Both the position numbers and the translations under genes were made by a program. 64,000 bases of DNA from Methylomonas sp. MK1. Lineage in GTDB: Bacteria; Pseudomonadota; Gammaproteobacteria; Methylococcales; Methylomonadaceae. Where the stretch lies: NCBI RefSeq assembly GCF_000365425.1, contig NZ_AQOV01000002.1, forward strand, positions 372,001 to 436,000. Direction: 5' to 3'. This document shows positions 29,656 to 37,125 of the stretch, one piece after another. The notes below the pieces were generated by a model. That model saw only the letters and a program-made list of their open reading frames with translations. It made no database searches and was not told where the DNA came from. Each line of letters starts with the position of its first letter. Positions within the stretch are counted from its first letter, which is position 1.

Positions 29656-30060
29656 TTATTTCTTGGGGATGGCAGGATGCCGATTACCCAAATGGTCGAT
29701 GTCGTCCAGGCTCATAATCGGCGAATACATTAGATCGTTAATATCGCTGGAGCGCTCCCAACCCAAAACCATCTGACCTATGGCGCGTTTGGTCATTTTG
29801 ATGAAGCGCGATTCCAGCTGTTGGCGGCCACCGGGCGAATTTTCCGATTCCGGGTGCATGCGCGCGGCGGAAACCACCGAACAGCGGCAGACCTTGTCAT
29901 GGTAGGAAAACTGGAAACGAAAATTTCTGGCCCGGCTGTTGATGTCGCGGTTAGTCAGAAAAATAAAATAGGTGTTGCTGTCCGCTTCCGGCAAACGCTG
30001 CATTACGGTTTTAGCCTGTTCGAAGATGTCTTCCGCCGCGAATTGTTGAGAGCCCGGCAT
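29656..30060 (-). pseudogene. 3' part of a frameshifted archaemetzincin-like lipoprotein
   Basis: This frame continues the lipoprotein gene at 30011-30358 after a shift of one frame near 30040-30060. It reads SQQFAAEDIFEQAK, TYFIFLTNRDIN and CSVVSAARMHP, an order seen in archaemetzincins. The place of the zinc motif HExxHxxG reads KRAIGQMVLGW, so zinc ligands are missing. It could be a decayed gene, a sequencing error or a non-catalytic family. An internal ATG at 30060 gives 134 codons, but no ribosome binding site is seen there. Confidence 0.5.
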
Positions 30061-30358
30061 CGGCCATCAGGCCTTGCGTGCCCATAGCCACAGTGCCCTT
30101 AACCCACAGCCCGAATTCCTTACTCAAATCCCTGCCGATTTGCGCCGCAATATCTTCCGAGAAATCATTCAACGGAATCAGATAAACATTCACGGGACCG
30201 GTTTTTTCGGTGGCTGCTGGTGGGTAAAGTGAGGCGGTCGATATAGATTTTGGGGCCGGAGCGGGGTTGGCTGCGGCTAATGGCTGGGTATATGGAGAGC
30301 TTGTTGTGCAGCCAGCCAGGGCGGCCGATAAAATAATCGTCATTGATAGATGTTTCAT
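30011..30358 (-). pseudogene. 5' part of a frameshifted archaemetzincin-like lipoprotein
   Basis: The start at 30358 gives a lipoprotein signal, MKHLSMTIILSAALAGCTTS, with lipobox LAGC. After a proline/alanine-rich linker comes VNVYLIPLNDFSEDIAAQIG and KEFGLWVKGT, the first strand-helix unit of an archaemetzincin-like fold. The frame then runs into a stop in the region overlapped by the other half. Only joining both frames gives a complete domain, so a frameshift is the best explanation. Confidence 0.55.
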
Positions 30359-30498
30359 TTGCGCTGTCTCGAGTCGATGCATAAGTTGGCATGGAAACGG
30401 ATATGGGGTTTCCAAACGATGCCAGATGACTATCGCTTGGCTGTGTTAAACAAAGTGAAACTCATCGAAAATCTTTAAAGCAGGGTTTTAATCCACAG

Positions 30499-33400
30499 CT
30501 ATGTGCTGCTGGGACGAGTAACATCAATCACAACAACATCAAGTCTATGTCTATCATCGATAGTTATTAGTGATCGAAGCGCATCTTCTAGTTCCTGAGC
30601 GGTTTCAGGTTTTTGTATTGGTTCTGGAGGCGTGGGCATGCGTTTTGTTGGTTTTTCGTCAAACCAAAATACCAAGTAAATACCATATCCGCTGGCTTGT
30701 GGGTCGCGTGTATATAGGGTATCCAACTGGTTTGCGCAGGCCGTCCATAAGGCCGAATGGTAATTCCGTTTAATTTCAATAGGCAATTTCTGTAAGGCTG
30801 CGTTCAGTAACACTATATCTGCGCGTTTGTCATCTACCATATGCCCTTCAGGTTCCACCGCTATTTCCAAAGGCGTAAACTTTTGTCTTAGCAAATCGAT
30901 TAAACGGTCGCGGCAGGACTCCTCGGATTTGGGCTGGTTTGTAATTCGGCCATACGAGTCTTCGTTCCAGAATATTTTAAAAATATCTGTATTTTCTGTT
31001 CGAATTTTAATGGCAACATCTTTTAAATATTCGATAGTTAAATTATAAAGATCAGCTATGTTAGTTGGTTTGCCATTTGATAGCGCTGAGATTGTTTGTT
31101 GCCAGTTAGGTTGGGAAAATAGTTGTTTTCTCCTTAAAGAGCTCTGATTGGCTGCTGCGTGTTTTAAGTGATCTAAATAGCTATACAGTGTAGGTTCATT
31201 AATAAATTTATTTAAGACCTCTATTGATTCGTTATCCACTCGTGTTGCTAGCTGGGTTATTTTATTTTTAACAAATTGCGCAGCATCAAAAAACTCATGC
31301 GATTTATTGTTATCTTCGATTATTTCGTCAATATTAGGGTATCGACTGCCAGTCAACGTAATAATAAATTCTATTTGACTATTTGAAAGTAAAGTGGGGT
31401 GAGTTGTAGTGTCAGCAATTCGAATTCGATCACTAAACCATATGTATGTCAAAATAAAATCATCACGTTTTGAGGAGAAGTCTTCAATCGCTTTTTTGAA
31501 ATTTTCAAAATCTAGTAAAAATCCAATACAAAACCATAATGCTTTTTGTTTTAAACGTATTTTTGTATGGGGTTTTATTGAGGAATATGTGAGTAGGAGT
31601 AACTGATTTTTCGCTTCAGGGATCGTAATGGCTTTTAATAGTAAAGTCCGCAATGACTCCATTGATGCTTTTGGATATTGGCTTAACAATCGCAAAATAG
31701 TTTCAGTCCTGTTTTTATCAAGATTGGAGTTTTCGCAAATATCTCTTAGGCCAATCACATGTTCTTTCTTGCTTGCCAAAAATAACTCCACTACTTCCAA
31801 GTAAGCTGATTGGACAAGTTCGGGATCATATTGAAATAATGCATATTGCCAGTCAGGTGTTATTTCTGTGCGGGAATTCCCTTCAGTAAGATAAAATGAG
31901 GGGAATAATAGATTTATTGTTAGGCTTGATTTGAGTGCTGGTTTAGGGATGTCGTTTAAATCGTTTTTTGTATTCCAGTATTCATTTGTTCCGGCTAATA
32001 TTGCAAACCACCAATCTTTAAACCTTCCTTCTGAATATAGGCTTACTATTTCAAATGTTGTAGGGAGATCGTTTCTGTAAAGTGCGGCTTGTAGTCCTTC
32101 TAGCGAAAATTGCAAATTTGATTCACCCAGTTCTATTTCCAGGCGTTTATGTGGTATCAAAGTGTTATCAACATCAGAAAATCTTGAAAAATATATCTTT
32201 GCTAACCAACTCATCCAACCAAGATGCGAGCCTGCGCGGATCAAGGCCAGGTCTTTATCGAAAGCTATACGATTTTTTTGCTGGTTATTCAGTCTATTTT
32301 CCCTGAGGGTGACGGTTTTATTTATTTTATTCCAGCGCCATTCTGGGATTTCACATTGGCAGGTACGAGACCATATGTCTTCAAGTTCGGGATGATTAGT
32401 GCGGTAGTTAAATAAAATGTCAAATAATTCAATATTGGTTGTTTGCGAAGTTATTATGACTAAAGTCAACTCAAAAATAAATTGATCATGCTCGTCACAG
32501 TGTTCTTTATTTGCAATTTTTGAAAATGAATGTGTTGCAATTTCATCGGCATTGTATTGATATCTGACCAATTCCCGAAAATTATTCCAAAATCCATGGA
32601 TATTAGAAAAGTCTTTATGCTCATTTAGTGCCAGGTTAAATATAAGGATTAAAAAACACGGGTTTTCTTCTAGCCAGGATTTAATAACGTCCCTGCGATG
32701 GCGTCCGTAGCCAGAATAGAACTTTAATCTTGATATCCAGCGCCATAGTTGGTTTGCATCAATGTTGCCTTCGGCGTGTAAAGTTCGTTCTAATAATTCA
32801 TATGCAAAGCTCCAAACCTCATCATATTCACTGACATTATCGAAATTTATTTGCGATAACAAATCAAGTGTGTTTGGTAAGTCGTTAATAGGTAAGGCTC
32901 GGCTTAAGAGCCACAAGTTACCTGTAACAACTTTGTTATGGTCGTAGTGATTAATGTGGTCAATAATAAGATGAATAGTATCTTCAGGAGAAAAATACTC
33001 ATTATATAATTTGTAAATTACTTCTTCTTTTAAACGAATGTCGTCGTTGGACGACTTAAGAGTTTCTCGGGTTGCTTTGACGGCTAATTGCTTTCCATTC
33101 GGAATGGCATGTATTAATCCTTCAATTGCACGAGACCTTTCGGCATAGGGTGCGCAGTTGTCGCAAAATAGATTTAATAACTCATCTTTAAGTTCAGGTT
33201 GTTGTTCCCCAAACTTAATTGCATCTAATACAATTGATCGCAAATGAAATTGTTGCGGTTTTCTTAATAATATAGATTTAAACTCACATGCTATATCTGG
33301 AGTGGATAAAAAACCAAGCGGCGCTCCTGACCAGTCTTCGGCACGAAACCAAGGGTTTTTTTCGGTAAGGTTTAGTAATTCATTTAGTAGTTTTTTCCGA

Positions 33401-34521
33401 CTTGATAGTGAAAGACAGCTTACATCTCCAAGAACTAATACTCCGTAGGGGTCATTTTCTAGTAACGAATCAGTATGTTCGGGTAACAATTGAGTTAACC
33501 ATGCATATAAGCCGCGCAGTTCCGGCGCTGGATGATTCTCTATTCCCAGCCAGCTAACTACTCGTCGAACAGGTAAGCCATTACGAACAGATTTAACTAA
33601 CCAGCATGCGGCTAAATATTCGGCAATAGTCCGATGAGAATACCCGACTTGTTCTTCCTGATGATTGGTAATAACAAATGCGCGTTTTGTTATAGCCGCC
33701 AACACTATTTCCGAATCGGGATAAGGTATATCGGCATAACTGTTATCCGCGTTTGTAAGTAATGAAATGCCCTCAATATCTGTAATCAGTAATACAGCAC
33801 AAGCAGCGCCAGCAGCATCTTTTAGCTGATCGATTTTGTATGCAGCTAATCGTTTGTGTTTGTGATTGCTGTTATGTTCCAACAGAAGTAAATCCGTTGC
33901 GTTTTCGAACAATTCAGTTTTTGTACTCGGCCATTGTCCATTTTTTACAGTATCAGCCAACATTATTAATGTTTGCGGGTTGCTGAGCATTGTTTCGATT
34001 CCTTTTTCGAATGCTTTTGCTTTGAATTCAGTAGGGTTGGCAATATTTTTTTCGCTCAATATTTGATCAATTCCATCCTCGTTCAAGGCTTCGAGGATCA
34101 CTACACAATATCCACCAGTTGCATCGAAGTATGGCTTAAATAATTCAAGGTCTGTTTCTCCAAGCCAATCAGCCACCCGGCATGATAATCTGACCTTGGA
34201 GGGCTTTATTTGTTTGATGTGCTTGATTATTTCATCAATCGAATCTGGCTGATCTGTGCGTGATCGCTTCTCGTCTAGGGCATCGATATAAATTGGCTTA
34301 TTGCTAAAATTTTCATCAGCATGAATTGTAAAATTTCGCGAGGATATGAAGTTTCCTTTTTCATGGTCTGCGCCGTTTCTGAAGAGATATGTTTTTCCAG
34401 CTCCAGGCTCCCCTAACAAAATAATATTTGGTATTTCCAAAATATCTGCAAACGTTAAAGCTTGGTTGCTTTCGTTATTTTGATTGGGAGGATATATTTT
34501 TTTGATTGCTCGGTCTAGCAT
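30499..34521 (-). CDS. Large NACHT/STAND-type NTPase with C-terminal PD-(D/E)xK nuclease domain
   Basis: A 1340-residue protein. The P-loop GEPGAGKT is at 37-44, only 36 residues from the start, and the Walker B with the NACHT-like acidic run is PIYIDALDE at 76-84. RLSCRVADW at 111-119 fits the sensor-1 arginine region. A winged-helix-like segment follows (YSHRTIAEYLAACWL, near 290), and then about 800 residues of helical repeats with no known name. The last 140 residues hold a nuclease pattern: Asp1235 (RADIVL) and Glu1249-x-Lys1251 (PIEIKR), then a Trp/Gln-rich helix. The gene is far more AT-rich than its surroundings and lies beside toxin-antitoxin genes. It is a likely single-gene antiphage protein, with the repeats sensing and the nuclease acting; that role is inference. 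Confidence 0.7.
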   Translation of the reverse strand: MLDRAIKKIYPPNQNNESNQALTFADILEIPNIILLGEPGAGKTYLFRNGADHEKGNFISSRNFTIHADENFSNKPIYIDALDEKRSRTDQPDSIDEIIKHIKQIKPSKVRLSCRVADWLGETDLELFKPYFDATGGYCVVILEALNEDGIDQILSEKNIANPTEFKAKAFEKGIETMLSNPQTLIMLADTVKNGQWPSTKTELFENATDLLLLEHNSNHKHKRLAAYKIDQLKDAAGAACAVLLITDIEGISLLTNADNSYADIPYPDSEIVLAAITKRAFVITNHQEEQVGYSHRTIAEYLAACWLVKSVRNGLPVRRVVSWLGIENHPAPELRGLYAWLTQLLPEHTDSLLENDPYGVLVLGDVSCLSLSSRKKLLNELLNLTEKNPWFRAEDWSGAPLGFLSTPDIACEFKSILLRKPQQFHLRSIVLDAIKFGEQQPELKDELLNLFCDNCAPYAERSRAIEGLIHAIPNGKQLAVKATRETLKSSNDDIRLKEEVIYKLYNEYFSPEDTIHLIIDHINHYDHNKVVTGNLWLLSRALPINDLPNTLDLLSQINFDNVSEYDEVWSFAYELLERTLHAEGNIDANQLWRWISRLKFYSGYGRHRRDVIKSWLEENPCFLILIFNLALNEHKDFSNIHGFWNNFRELVRYQYNADEIATHSFSKIANKEHCDEHDQFIFELTLVIITSQTTNIELFDILFNYRTNHPELEDIWSRTCQCEIPEWRWNKINKTVTLRENRLNNQQKNRIAFDKDLALIRAGSHLGWMSWLAKIYFSRFSDVDNTLIPHKRLEIELGESNLQFSLEGLQAALYRNDLPTTFEIVSLYSEGRFKDWWFAILAGTNEYWNTKNDLNDIPKPALKSSLTINLLFPSFYLTEGNSRTEITPDWQYALFQYDPELVQSAYLEVVELFLASKKEHVIGLRDICENSNLDKNRTETILRLLSQYPKASMESLRTLLLKAITIPEAKNQLLLLTYSSIKPHTKIRLKQKALWFCIGFLLDFENFKKAIEDFSSKRDDFILTYIWFSDRIRIADTTTHPTLLSNSQIEFIITLTGSRYPNIDEIIEDNNKSHEFFDAAQFVKNKITQLATRVDNESIEVLNKFINEPTLYSYLDHLKHAAANQSSLRRKQLFSQPNWQQTISALSNGKPTNIADLYNLTIEYLKDVAIKIRTENTDIFKIFWNEDSYGRITNQPKSEESCRDRLIDLLRQKFTPLEIAVEPEGHMVDDKRADIVLLNAALQKLPIEIKRNYHSALWTACANQLDTLYTRDPQASGYGIYLVFWFDEKPTKRMPTPPEPIQKPETAQELEDALRSLITIDDRHRLDVVVIDVTRPSST

Positions 34522-34602
34522 CTATGAGGGTTAATCGTAGGGGCGGATTGAAGTCAGGTTAGGTATGTAGCACATACCAATTTTCTTGTCATAAAACCAA
34601 AA

Positions 34603-34875
34603 TCAACCACCGCGCTGGTAATGATACCGACAAGCAATGACAGTAATATGGCTATCGGAAACGGCATAAACCAAGCGATGCGTATCGTCTATACGGCGCG
34701 ACCAAAAACCGGCCAGATTTTCCTTTAACGCTTCCGGTTTTCCGATGCCTTCGAACGGTGCGCGCAATACTTCCGTAATCAGTTTGTTGATGCGGGTTAG
34801 GGTTTTTTTATCCTGTTCTTGCCAATACAGATAATCGGACCAGGCGGCTTCTGTCCAAGCCAGCAGTCTAGTCAT
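34603..34875 (-). CDS. yoeB: YoeB-family mRNA interferase toxin
   Basis: A 90-residue RelE/YoeB toxin. The start at 34875 gives MTRLLAWTEAAWSDYLYWQ, the usual YoeB beginning, and overlaps the antitoxin gene by 8 bp. The sequence shows INKLITEVLRAPFEGIGKPE, SRRIDDTHRLVY and the C-terminal CRYHY, with the His-Tyr active-site end of the family. YoeB cuts mRNA on the ribosome. There is a short tail (QRGG) after the usual C-terminus. Antitoxin first and toxin second is the normal order. Confidence 0.93.
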   Translation of the reverse strand: MTRLLAWTEAAWSDYLYWQEQDKKTLTRINKLITEVLRAPFEGIGKPEALKENLAGFWSRRIDDTHRLVYAVSDSHITVIACRYHYQRGG

Positions 34876-35122
34876 CCAATAAAGCTCGTTCCGTGGTTTG
34901 GCCTTGGCGGTATTGGGCAATGGATTCGGCCAGGTGGGCGGCGTTGGCGGGCGATTTCAGCAGGTGCACGGTTTCCATCAGGCTGTTGTAATACTCTAGC
35001 GACATAACCACGGCGTCTTGGCTGTCGCGGCGGGTTATGACGGTGCAGTCGGCGTCGTTGACAACTTGGTCCAGCAGTGTTTTAAGGCCATTTCTGGCTT
35101 CGGTAAACGAGACTATGCGCAT
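34868..35122 (-). CDS. yefM: YefM-family antitoxin
   Basis: An 84-residue Phd/YefM antitoxin. The start at 35122 gives MRIVSFTEARNGLKTLLDQV, the DNA-binding N-terminus; an upstream in-frame ATG at 35155 lies inside the predicted operator and is unlikely. VVMSLEYYNSLMETVHLL is the family core, and the C-terminal SIAQYRQGQTTERALLDD wraps the toxin. It represses its own operon together with YoeB. It overlaps yoeB by 8 bp. Confidence 0.93.
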   Translation of the reverse strand: MRIVSFTEARNGLKTLLDQVVNDADCTVITRRDSQDAVVMSLEYYNSLMETVHLLKSPANAAHLAESIAQYRQGQTTERALLDD

Positions 35123-35147
35123 GATTGAACCCCAGTTGTTCCTAATA

Positions 35148-35155
35148 TTGTACAA
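35148..35155. promoter_or_regulatory. Likely YefM operator core (TTGTACAA)
   Basis: A perfect palindrome with the TGTACA core known for YefM-YoeB autoregulation, 26 bp upstream of the yefM ATG and overlapping a minus-strand TACAAT that could serve as -10. Confidence 0.55.
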
Positions 35156-35230
35156 GTCTAGGTTGTCGGGTGGGGCTTTGCAACTTTGCGATTAGGTAGG
35201 CCGGAATAAGCGAAAGCGTTTCCGGCAAAC

Positions 35231-35335
35231 TTAGCAGCCAGAAACGGTTGTCAGCTTATGGCGAGTTTGTTCGGGTAGCAAATTTGGCGAGCCAGCCGCT
35301 CAAAGCAGCATATGGGTATCAAGCAGCAGTTTCAT
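35231..35335 (-). pseudogene. vapC: vapC toxin remnant killed by an in-frame stop
   Basis: From ATG at 35335 the frame reads MKLLLDTHMLL, then TGA where VapC toxins have Trp (LLW), and continues in the same frame as AAGSPNLLPEQTRHKL before a TAA at 35231-35233. This is the start of a PIN-domain toxin with its first catalytic Asp, and the rest is lost. It overlaps the antitoxin gene by 17 bp, as an intact pair would. Confidence 0.75.
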
Positions 35336-35576
35336 CGTCAGTGCCGAATAGCTGCGCAATCTCTTCGCTGCCCATACTGTCAAAATCGTCGGGCACTTTG
35401 ATATGCCCGCTTAGGAACCCCAAGCGTCGGATCTGATCGCCAGTTGAGTTGTACAGTGCGGAAACTTTAACCAACTGTTTGCCTGCTTTGGCAATCATGA
35501 ACGGTTCGCCTTTGGCGGCTTGTTCGACCAAGCGAGATAAGTGAGTTTTTGCCTCGTGGATATTTACTGTTTGCAC
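35319..35576 (-). CDS. vapB: VapB/Phd-type antitoxin, now without a working toxin
   Basis: An 85-residue Phd/YefM-fold antitoxin: MQTVNIHEAKTHLSRLVEQAAKGEPFMIAKAGKQLVKV is the DNA-binding half (given here only as landmarks MQTVNIHEAKTHLS and GEPFMIAKAGK), and the acidic C-terminus ends EEIAQLFGTDDETAA. It is preceded by AGGTCTTCGTGC. Its partner vapC directly downstream has a nonsense codon, so this gene may persist as an orphan that protects against, or cross-regulates, related toxins. Confidence 0.85.
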   Translation of the reverse strand: MQTVNIHEAKTHLSRLVEQAAKGEPFMIAKAGKQLVKVSALYNSTGDQIRRLGFLSGHIKVPDDFDSMGSEEIAQLFGTDDETAA

Positions 35577-35663
35577 GAAGACCTCCGATAAACCAAGTTG
35601 AGTTGATTTAGCCTATCACGCATCTTTGCCGTTTGCCCCCTCAAAGTACTAGCGTTTGCTGAT

Positions 35664-36017
35664 TTAGCCGGCTAATAAACTCTCATATGGAATCGCCAAG
35701 CCGTCGTGCAGGCGTTTGATCATTCTTAGGCTCAAAGGGCGTTTGCGGTTAAGGACTTCCGATACGCGGCCGCTGCTGCCGATATAAGTTTCCAGGTCTT
35801 TTGCGCTGAGGTTTTGCTGCTCCATACGGAATTTGATGGCCTCGATAGGGTCTGGCGGGGCGATAGCGTAATGTTTGTTTTCGTAAACCTCGATCAAGGT
35901 AACCCATACCTCCATTTCATCGGCCTCCGGGGTATCCGGTTCGGCTTGGAATATGGCTTCCAGCCGTTGAAAGGCGGCTTTTAATTCATCGTCGTTTCGG
36001 ATTGGCTTAATAGTCAT
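35664..36017 (-). CDS. higA: HigA-family antitoxin (HTH)
   Basis: A 117-residue antitoxin with an Xre-type helix-turn-helix in the C-terminal half (AIKFRMEQQNLSAKDLETYIG, then VSEVLNRKRPLSLRMIKRL). The acidic N-terminal half (EAIFQAEPDTPEADEMEVW) is typical of HigA proteins whose toxin gene comes first. The start at 36017 is chosen over an upstream ATG at 36035 because it matches the family (MTIKPIRND). It overlaps higB by 11 bp. Confidence 0.9.
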   Translation of the reverse strand: MTIKPIRNDDELKAAFQRLEAIFQAEPDTPEADEMEVWVTLIEVYENKHYAIAPPDPIEAIKFRMEQQNLSAKDLETYIGSSGRVSEVLNRKRPLSLRMIKRLHDGLAIPYESLLAG

Positions 36018-36315
36018 TGACCGTCTCCACGTCAATTAGGTCGTATTGGGCATGTGTGCCAACAAACTTTATCCAGGCAATGCCGGCGCGATATTGCATT
36101 TCTACTACTAGACGGTATTTGTTGCCGCCAATGTTAAATACTACGCGATTGTTATTGCAGATGCTGGCATTACGATATTGATTCTTGATGGCTTGCGGTG
36201 AAGGCCAATTGGCTTTCAGGGCTTCTTCGTACCAACTTTCAAGTGGGCCTTTTGCATCGCGATGCGAGGGCTGTTCCCAAAATTTCTTGATGGTGCTTTT
36301 TGCTATGACCCGCAT
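36007..36315 (-). CDS. higB: HigB-family mRNA interferase toxin
   Basis: A 102-residue RelE-superfamily toxin of the HigB group: MRVIAKSTIKKFWEQ, ALKANWPSPQAIKNQYRNAS, RVVFNIGGNKYRLVVEMQY and KFVGTHAQYDLID are all hallmark segments. It cleaves translated mRNA. The toxin precedes the antitoxin, as is normal for higBA. Confidence 0.92.
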   Translation of the reverse strand: MRVIAKSTIKKFWEQPSHRDAKGPLESWYEEALKANWPSPQAIKNQYRNASICNNNRVVFNIGGNKYRLVVEMQYRAGIAWIKFVGTHAQYDLIDVETVNDY

Positions 36316-36334
36316 GATTATAGAGTTTTATCTC

Positions 36335-36344
36335 CCCAATTGGG
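36335..36344. promoter_or_regulatory. Palindrome upstream of higBA, possible operator
   Basis: CCCAATTGGG is a perfect 10-bp palindrome 20 bp before the higB ATG, in the place expected for HigA autoregulation. No family-specific consensus was checked. Confidence 0.35.
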
Positions 36345-36458
36345 AGCAGTGTAAGCGGTGCTGTTACTCTACGCAAGGAACAAATATTCGCTTAACAAGT
36401 GCGCTGAGACTTAATGCGAAGAGTGCATGTCGCTCGCCAATTGAATTTGCGTTACTGG

Positions 36459-36487
36459 GGATGCGCCGACTGTAGCTCGGCGCATCC
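36459..36487 (-). terminator. Strong hairpin after ppa
   Basis: GGATGCGCCGA (36459-36469) and TCGGCGCATCC (36477-36487) form a perfect 11-bp stem with a 7-base loop, 15 bp beyond the stop of the pyrophosphatase gene. No T tract follows on either strand, so it may act as an mRNA stabiliser or a factor-dependent terminator. Confidence 0.5.
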
Positions 36488-36501
36488 GTTCCAAAACAAC
36501 T

Positions 36502-37125
36502 CTACTCGTCGTCCTGGCAGCCAAAATGATACTGATAATCCGCGATTGCGCGTCTGATGACCTCATGGGCCTCTTCGCGGCCGTAGACATGAGTAATTTC
36601 ACAGACGCTTTTTTCGCTGGGTAAATGTTTGTAGGTCAGGAAGTAATGCTTCAAGCGATTGATATACGATTCGGGGCAGTCGGAGACGTCGCGCCATTGC
36701 CGGTAGAATTCGTCGCCTTTCATGACGGCGATGATTTTGTCGTCGGCCTCGCCGCCGTCTAGTAACCGAAAACCGCCGATGGGGATGGCTTGTAGCAGGA
36801 TGTCGCCATGCGTCACGCTACGTTCGCTTAATACGCAAATATCCAGTGGGTCGCCGTCGCCCTTGCTGACCGGTTTGCCGGATTGTGCGGCGGCGTATTC
36901 GGCGATTTTTTCCGCGCAATAACTGCGCGGAATGAAGCCGTACAGAGTAGGAATCATGTTGGAGAATTTTTGCGGCCGGTCGATTTTCAGATAGCCGCTG
37001 TCTTTGTCGATTTCGTATTTCACCGTGTCGGACGGCACGATTTCTATGAAGGCGGTGACGATGTCCGGGGTGTTGTCGCCGGGCGAGATGCCGTGCCAGG
37101 GGTGGGCTTTGTGTTTTATATTCAT
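36502..37125 (-). CDS. ppa: Family I inorganic pyrophosphatase
   Basis: A 207-residue soluble pyrophosphatase that splits pyrophosphate into two phosphates. The metal-binding signature DGDPLDICVL is present, with KYEIDKDSGYLKIDR and a GFIPRSYC segment upstream. It resembles the larger bacterial/eukaryote-like form more than E. coli Ppa (176 residues). It is a single gene with a strong hairpin after it. The same window encodes a pyrophosphate-using PEP carboxykinase, so pyrophosphate is both used and destroyed in this organism. Confidence 0.92.
   Translation of the reverse strand: MNIKHKAHPWHGISPGDNTPDIVTAFIEIVPSDTVKYEIDKDSGYLKIDRPQKFSNMIPTLYGFIPRSYCAEKIAEYAAAQSGKPVSKGDGDPLDICVLSERSVTHGDILLQAIPIGGFRLLDGGEADDKIIAVMKGDEFYRQWRDVSDCPESYINRLKHYFLTYKHLPSEKSVCEITHVYGREEAHEVIRRAIADYQYHFGCQDDE

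Follow-up and report, generated by a model that had tools for sequence, protein, structure and literature searches.

We consider it likely that a reverse-strand gene in DNA of the gammaproteobacterial methanotroph Methylomonas sp. MK1 encodes a member of the EruA antiphage family, in which a signal transduction ATPase with numerous domains (STAND) switch related to the NOD-like receptors (NLRs) is arranged as NACHT module, helical superhelix and nuclease, and that this protein belongs to a clade whose members have no partner gene. The gene lies in a stretch of 64,000 nucleotides, the whole of which is called the window here and from whose first letter all window coordinates are counted. The 1340-residue protein matched the NCBIfam equivalog NF058535 ("NACHT domain-containing antiphage protein EruA") at 1052.4 bits against a cut-off of 1000, with residues 15-1335 aligned to positions 8-1318 of the 1318-position model. 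Matches over this cut-off comprised solo members as well as ones preceded by a partner gene (L094, L096 and L097). The original prediction had proposed an undescribed antiphage system, a claim overtaken by the existing family name; what deserves further work is the reversed layout and the partner gene confined to one clade.

Scans of the whole protein against Pfam and PADLOC gave no match above any cut-off, and phmmer with the whole protein against the PDB gave no match at all. Because NCBIfam names the family, we did not count these blanks as novelty. Of the 120 homologues listed (of 164), roughly three in four carry the Pfam label PF28130, which the Pfam scan of the present protein did not report. 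No paper naming EruA was found by name and topic in the literature searched, which leaves out preprints and holds few subscription papers and is therefore a weak sign on publication. Among the matches listed for the names EruA and HyoA in the open literature, none was a phage paper by its title. The EruA of that literature, according to the available part of PMC12839154, is a SlyA-type regulator of Escherichia coli and an unrelated namesake. The accessible part of the DefensePredictor main text (PMC13092281) has no word starting with Eru or Hyo.

An N-terminal NACHT module and a predicted C-terminal nuclease fold

The P-loop (G-x4-GK-T) begins at G37, leaving 36 residues before it; when the protein was shuffled 1000 times, 1.5% of the shuffles contained a P-loop of this form. 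Conservation was scored in 83 full-length loci, after exclusion of the 18 of 101 non-self open reading frames (ORFs) that did not reach both ends. The Walker A residues G40, G42 and K43 were present in 83/83 loci and G37 in 80/83. In Walker B, which carries a predicted strand at 77-80, D80 and E84 were found in 83/83 and D83 in 82/83. R115 and the winged-helix HR motif (H296/R297) were, like all of these except G37, each retained in 82-83 of the 83. The predicted structure has the fold of NACHT STAND NTPases, comprising nucleotide-binding domain (NBD), helical domain 1 (HD1), winged-helix domain (WHD) and helical domain 2 (HD2), and structural alignments to NLRs start at model residue 1. The Avs4 structure 8dgf matched the N-terminal half (E 5.8e-5), and a profile search with that half returned generic P-loops only. 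The Pfam NACHT model PF05729 was absent from the Pfam matches at E up to 1, where only AAA_22 and AAA_16 appeared, both sub-cut-off, so that the NACHT assignment rests on the fold. The model places a NACHT-type NTPase at the N-terminus without space for an effector in front of it.

At the other end, a bare D-x13-ExK pattern is weak evidence of a nuclease, being present in 34% of 1000 shuffles of the protein. The motif is credible despite this rate because of its conservation and the predicted fold. D1235, E1249 and K1251 were invariant in 57 alignment rows (the present protein and 56 homologues, hand-picked from the 120 listed of 164), and among the full-length loci D and E were kept in 83/83 and K in 82/83. 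Strands are predicted at 1221-1227, 1233-1239 (with D1235) and 1245-1252 (with E1249 and K1251), and a helix at 1261-1270 (with Q1265). The model thus has an alpha-beta-beta-beta-alpha-beta core with D and E-x-K on neighbouring strands, as in PD-(D/E)XK nucleases, and no non-nuclease fold was modelled. Both ends are joined in 83/83 full-length loci, in part a selection effect since the set was chosen for reaching both ends, and in six of seven more distant members, a count that leaves aside the decayed 275-residue fragment L102; the nuclease residues were likewise kept in six of the seven. No Pfam family was matched by more than two of the 57 C-terminal domains, and the matches of single members include MmcB-like (0.01), HSDR_N (0.03), BglII (0.18, the present protein) and DUF4143 (0.2). 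A profile of the domain found only unrelated matches in the PDB, and Foldseek with the C-terminal half found none at E 0.001 or better. The domain is probably a PD-(D/E)XK nuclease, predicted from fold and residues, which would cleave DNA. The original prediction had placed the P-loop 36 residues from the N-terminus, too few for an effector, and the three nuclease residues at the C-terminus, exactly where we find them; homologues bear out the pairing of the two ends. A standalone 289-residue homologue of the C-terminal domain occurs on an Azospirillum plasmid (L003:7950-8819) and is either a free domain or a remnant.

A partner gene in one clade and a patchy distribution

Neighbourhoods were surveyed at 75 full-length loci (L004, L005 and those among L008-L090), with no background of random loci, and we claim no enrichment of defence genes. 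Clustering of their 1237 neighbour ORFs yielded one strongly recurrent neighbour, found in 42 loci upstream of the EruA ORF on the same strand. Thirty-three of these partners overlap the EruA ORF, seven end at most 6 bases off, one ends 434 bases off and one is obscured by too early a start; the overlaps depend on the choice of longest-ORF starts. The partner is an AAA_14-DUF4143 protein corresponding to the PADLOC candidate PDC-S01 (model PDLC04791, 413-533 bits for three representatives), and a D..E-x-K pattern is seen in its C-terminal part as well.

In a tree of 84 rows the partner was restricted to one clade (clade II, 62 rows), and the other, solo clade (22 rows) includes the present protein. 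The tree was built quickly and has 17 weakly supported forks; the branch separating the clades had a Shimodaira-Hasegawa-like approximate likelihood ratio test (SH-aLRT) value of 100, and the midpoint root served for drawing only. After tblastn and inclusion of in-genus loci, the partner was found in 51 of the 62 clade II rows (row L100 duplicates L032). As for the other 11, L074 and L095 are without upstream sequence to inspect, L040 has a 30-residue remnant and eight are without the partner. At L065:8612-14110 partner and EruA are fused in a single reading frame of 1832 residues. No partner was found in any of the 22 solo-clade rows; upstream sequence reaches 7.8 kb or more at 19 of the 21 loci, the exceptions being L008 and L045. 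For the present gene, tblastn gave no partner match in the window at 1e-5 and none in the genome at 1e-60. At E 1e-60, 10 of 101 related genomes carry the partner, seven of them directly beside EruA. In the other three it lies on a different contig from EruA (G030), stands beside a decayed EruA and itself has a stop (G087), or is alone (G090).

Some EruA match at E 0.001 was present in 23 of the 101 related genomes. Full-length matches of at least 960 bits occurred in nine, the present genome included, with five of the nine over the model cut-off, and the proteins of the remaining eight are about 28% identical to the present one. The family members of the same-genus relative G026 and of Methylomonas sp. 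LW13 are identical. The nearest homologue among the matches listed, from a Methylobacter metagenome-assembled genome (MAG), shares 61% identity along the whole protein. The MK1 genome (5.23 Mb) holds one full-length copy and one other match, weak and partial (29 bits). Matches were found in 30 of 72,556 plasmid records (nine covering at least 80%), in one of 50,697 phage records (partial) and at six IMG/VR loci, three of them nearly full-length and a fourth so only weakly; a different query added one more partial locus. DNA of the Citrobacter homologue is present in at least 8 of 5,426 E. coli genomes, at least six of them with at least 80%, both lower bounds. An integrase-bearing element between tRNA-Asn genes holds the homologue in E. 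coli N17 and MS20657, and a divergent AriA/GajA-like ATPase adjoins the E. coli locus. Ten phylum labels occur across the family, 67 of the 83 full-length loci being labelled and many being MAGs. These observations support a patchy distribution and a mobile gene. At L113:13951-19632 in E. coli, an LA2681-type HEPN gene follows the EruA homologue 12 bases on, and the same pair occurs in Citrobacter (L019). We rejected the HEPN gene as a general EruA partner, since among the 75 loci it recurs with the Citrobacter homologue only.

The insertion site

Features of the window and examples of the partner gene at other loci
Feature	Coordinates	Strand	Details
eruA-like gene	30499..34521	-	ATG start, stop included, 1340 aa; NACHT, ARM/HEAT-like helices, PD-(D/E)XK domain
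NACHT module (NBD, HD1, winged helix, HD2)	33103..34521	-	residues 1 to about 473
Walker A GEPGAGKT	34390..34413	-	residues 37-44
Walker B (D80, D83, E84)	34270..34293	-	residues 77-84
Helical superhelix, ARM/HEAT-like, presumed sensor	30973..33102	-	residues about 474-1183
Predicted PD-(D/E)XK domain	30520..30972	-	residues about 1184-1334
Nuclease-motif codons	30769..30819	-	D1235 30817-30819, E1249 30775-30777, K1251 30769-30771
Inserted block eruA + yoeB + yefM	30360..35251	.	missing from the same slot in four relatives; left edge 30360-30376 by relative
YoeB toxin, within inserted block	34603..34920	-	PF06769, 138.9 bits
YefM antitoxin, within inserted block	34868..35155	-	PF02604, 80.2 bits
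Phd/YefM-type antitoxin	35319..35576	-	PF02604, 31.9 bits; PIN toxin cut off near 35252
HigA-like helix-turn-helix (HTH) protein and HigB toxin	35664..36315	-	HigB PF09907, 104.3 bits; HTH_3 20.6 bits, below cut-off 23
Partner gene directly upstream of clade II EruA homologues	L031:1887-3164; L032:8564-9997		examples

The two stretches flanking the gene were searched in 41 genomes, the present one included. In four same-genus relatives (G006, G011, G013 and G024) both flanks lie a few kb apart, with eruA between them in 0/4. In blastn against these loci (L135-L138), window positions 30376-35251 were unmatched in all four, and alignment was confined to sequence outside the block. The slot holds a 1316-residue Metallophos-NACHT-LRR (leucine-rich repeat) protein (L138:1926-5876) with toxin-antitoxin-like ORFs in G013, a GmrSD_N protein with HipA in G006 (L137), a HigBA stretch, a Phd-PIN pair and a 264-residue protein in G024 (L136), and an HIT-hexapeptide protein with neighbours in G011 (L135). 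L136 aligns to window positions 35252-36716, which cover the HigBA stretch, at 93.7% identity. The right junction near 35252 falls within a PIN toxin gene (PF01850) that is intact in L136, and because it interrupts that gene the antitoxin at 35319-35576 stands alone. No terminal repeats of the inserted block were found; promoter-like sites were rarer than in shuffles and terminator-like sites about equal to them. At this small locus, defence-type genes and toxin-antitoxin pairs are swapped for one another, and eruA arrived there with the yefM-yoeB pair where relatives hold other defence-type genes.

The GC content of eruA is 37.8%, against 51.7% for the window, and its frame is intact, with 1340 codons open and every conserved residue checked present. 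The gene is an intact and probably horizontally acquired member of a family already named as antiphage. The AT-rich composition and the mobile defence gene of the original prediction agree with these data, and its three toxin-antitoxin loci do so in part: YefM-YoeB is complete and HigB is clear, with a HigA-like partner below its cut-off, and the third locus is an antitoxin whose PIN toxin is truncated off. A lipoprotein-like gene bordering the slot (window 29656-30415) is split across two frames (ORFs 30011-30415 and 29656-30060); in L135-L138 it is a single ORF of 231-272 residues. The gene has no Pfam match.

A possible mechanism and related systems

At rest, the NACHT module may hold ADP and be folded onto the superhelix. 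A phage product would bind the superhelix, ADP would be exchanged for ATP and the NACHT modules would oligomerise, as their likeness in fold to NLRC4, NOD2 and NLRP3 suggests. The oligomer would gather the PD-(D/E)XK domains at the C-terminal tips, which could then cut DNA and end the infection by suicide or by destruction of phage DNA. The parts are known, bNACHT25 and bNACHT32 having such a DNase, but their order in EruA differs from the one described in the available part of PMC12169576. We see about an even chance that EruA and HyoA form a reversed class of NLR-related bacterial proteins with the DNase at the tip of the superhelix, outside the hub, and that the larger EruA clade is a two-component system with PDC-S01, which may be a second nuclease or a loader, while the solo clade works without it.

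The published order weighs against this mechanism. NACHT proteins are described, in the part of PMC12169576 available, with the effector N-terminal and the sensor C-terminal, so that position alone would favour a C-terminal domain that senses DNA ends or phage DNA, with killing left, for example, to the oligomer alone or to an unlinked partner. The same part of that source reports clade 14 bNACHT proteins that defend without a discernible effector, and the standalone Azospirillum domain, though possibly a remnant, also fits. A role in sensing only is nevertheless disfavoured, and we hold it unlikely, because a mere DNA-binding module could lose its catalytic residues, and here these residues, beyond the fold, are retained in all 57 rows, in 82-83 of 83 loci and in six of seven distant members. 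Somewhat less probable still is a system aimed mainly at plasmids or other mobile elements, or a switch in DNA repair or recombination, with phage defence incidental. Carriage on plasmids and integrative elements makes exclusion of competitors plausible, and the present copy has no known phage target; however, NCBI names the family as antiphage, and the relatives' slot and the E. coli neighbourhood contain genes of phage-defence types. That eruA is cargo retained by yefM-yoeB, with its function lost in this genome, seems very improbable: the shared arrival, the unusual GC content and the decay of the clade II homologue in G087 would accommodate it, but the open frame and its full set of conserved residues argue otherwise.

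If the nuclease is the effector, an N-terminal NACHT module retained together with an invariant nuclease motif at the opposite end implies that an NLR switch may drive its effector whether placed before or after it. This raises the question of the route by which an N-terminal wheel activates C-terminal nucleases. The pairing with PDC-S01 by clade, once as a fusion, points to an operon to clone; in that clade, tests of either gene by itself risk a false negative.

HyoA has the same order, an N-terminal P-loop module with a C-terminal E..D..E-x-K..Q in its full-length matches (L139-L141). The present protein scored 169.2 bits against the HyoA model (NF058534; cut-off 1200), below its threshold, and by this score HyoA is a sister family of EruA and not the same one. 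In G132 a HyoA-like protein (L142:1402-5688) is missing the nuclease. A short motif at its C-terminal end resembles one at the beginning of the small ORF that follows, and the two proteins look like an adaptor pair replacing the nuclease. Compared with the animal NLRC4, NOD2 and NLRP3, the EruA-like protein has no death-fold domain in front, has ARM/HEAT-like helices in place of leucine-rich repeats and ends in a nuclease. Can2/Card1 is a CRISPR-linked CARF-PD-(D/E)XK nuclease. It is a different host protein, and the Pfam matches of the EruA-like protein at E up to 1 included no CARF domain, CARF not having been sought by fold. DS-8, in the accessible part of the DefensePredictor paper (PMC13092281), is a metallophosphatase-NACHT antiphage protein; it has a NACHT switch and a hydrolase in common with the EruA-like protein, its effector being the metallophosphatase, and the slot protein of G013 resembles it in domain architecture. 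With bNACHT25, bNACHT32 and Avs4 the EruA-like protein shares the NACHT/STAND switch, and with the first two a PD-(D/E)XK DNase, which in them is N-terminal and acts as the effector on activation (PMC12169576, available part). In all three the effector lies in front of the NTPase, whereas in the EruA-like protein nothing precedes the NACHT module and the predicted nuclease is at the C-terminus.
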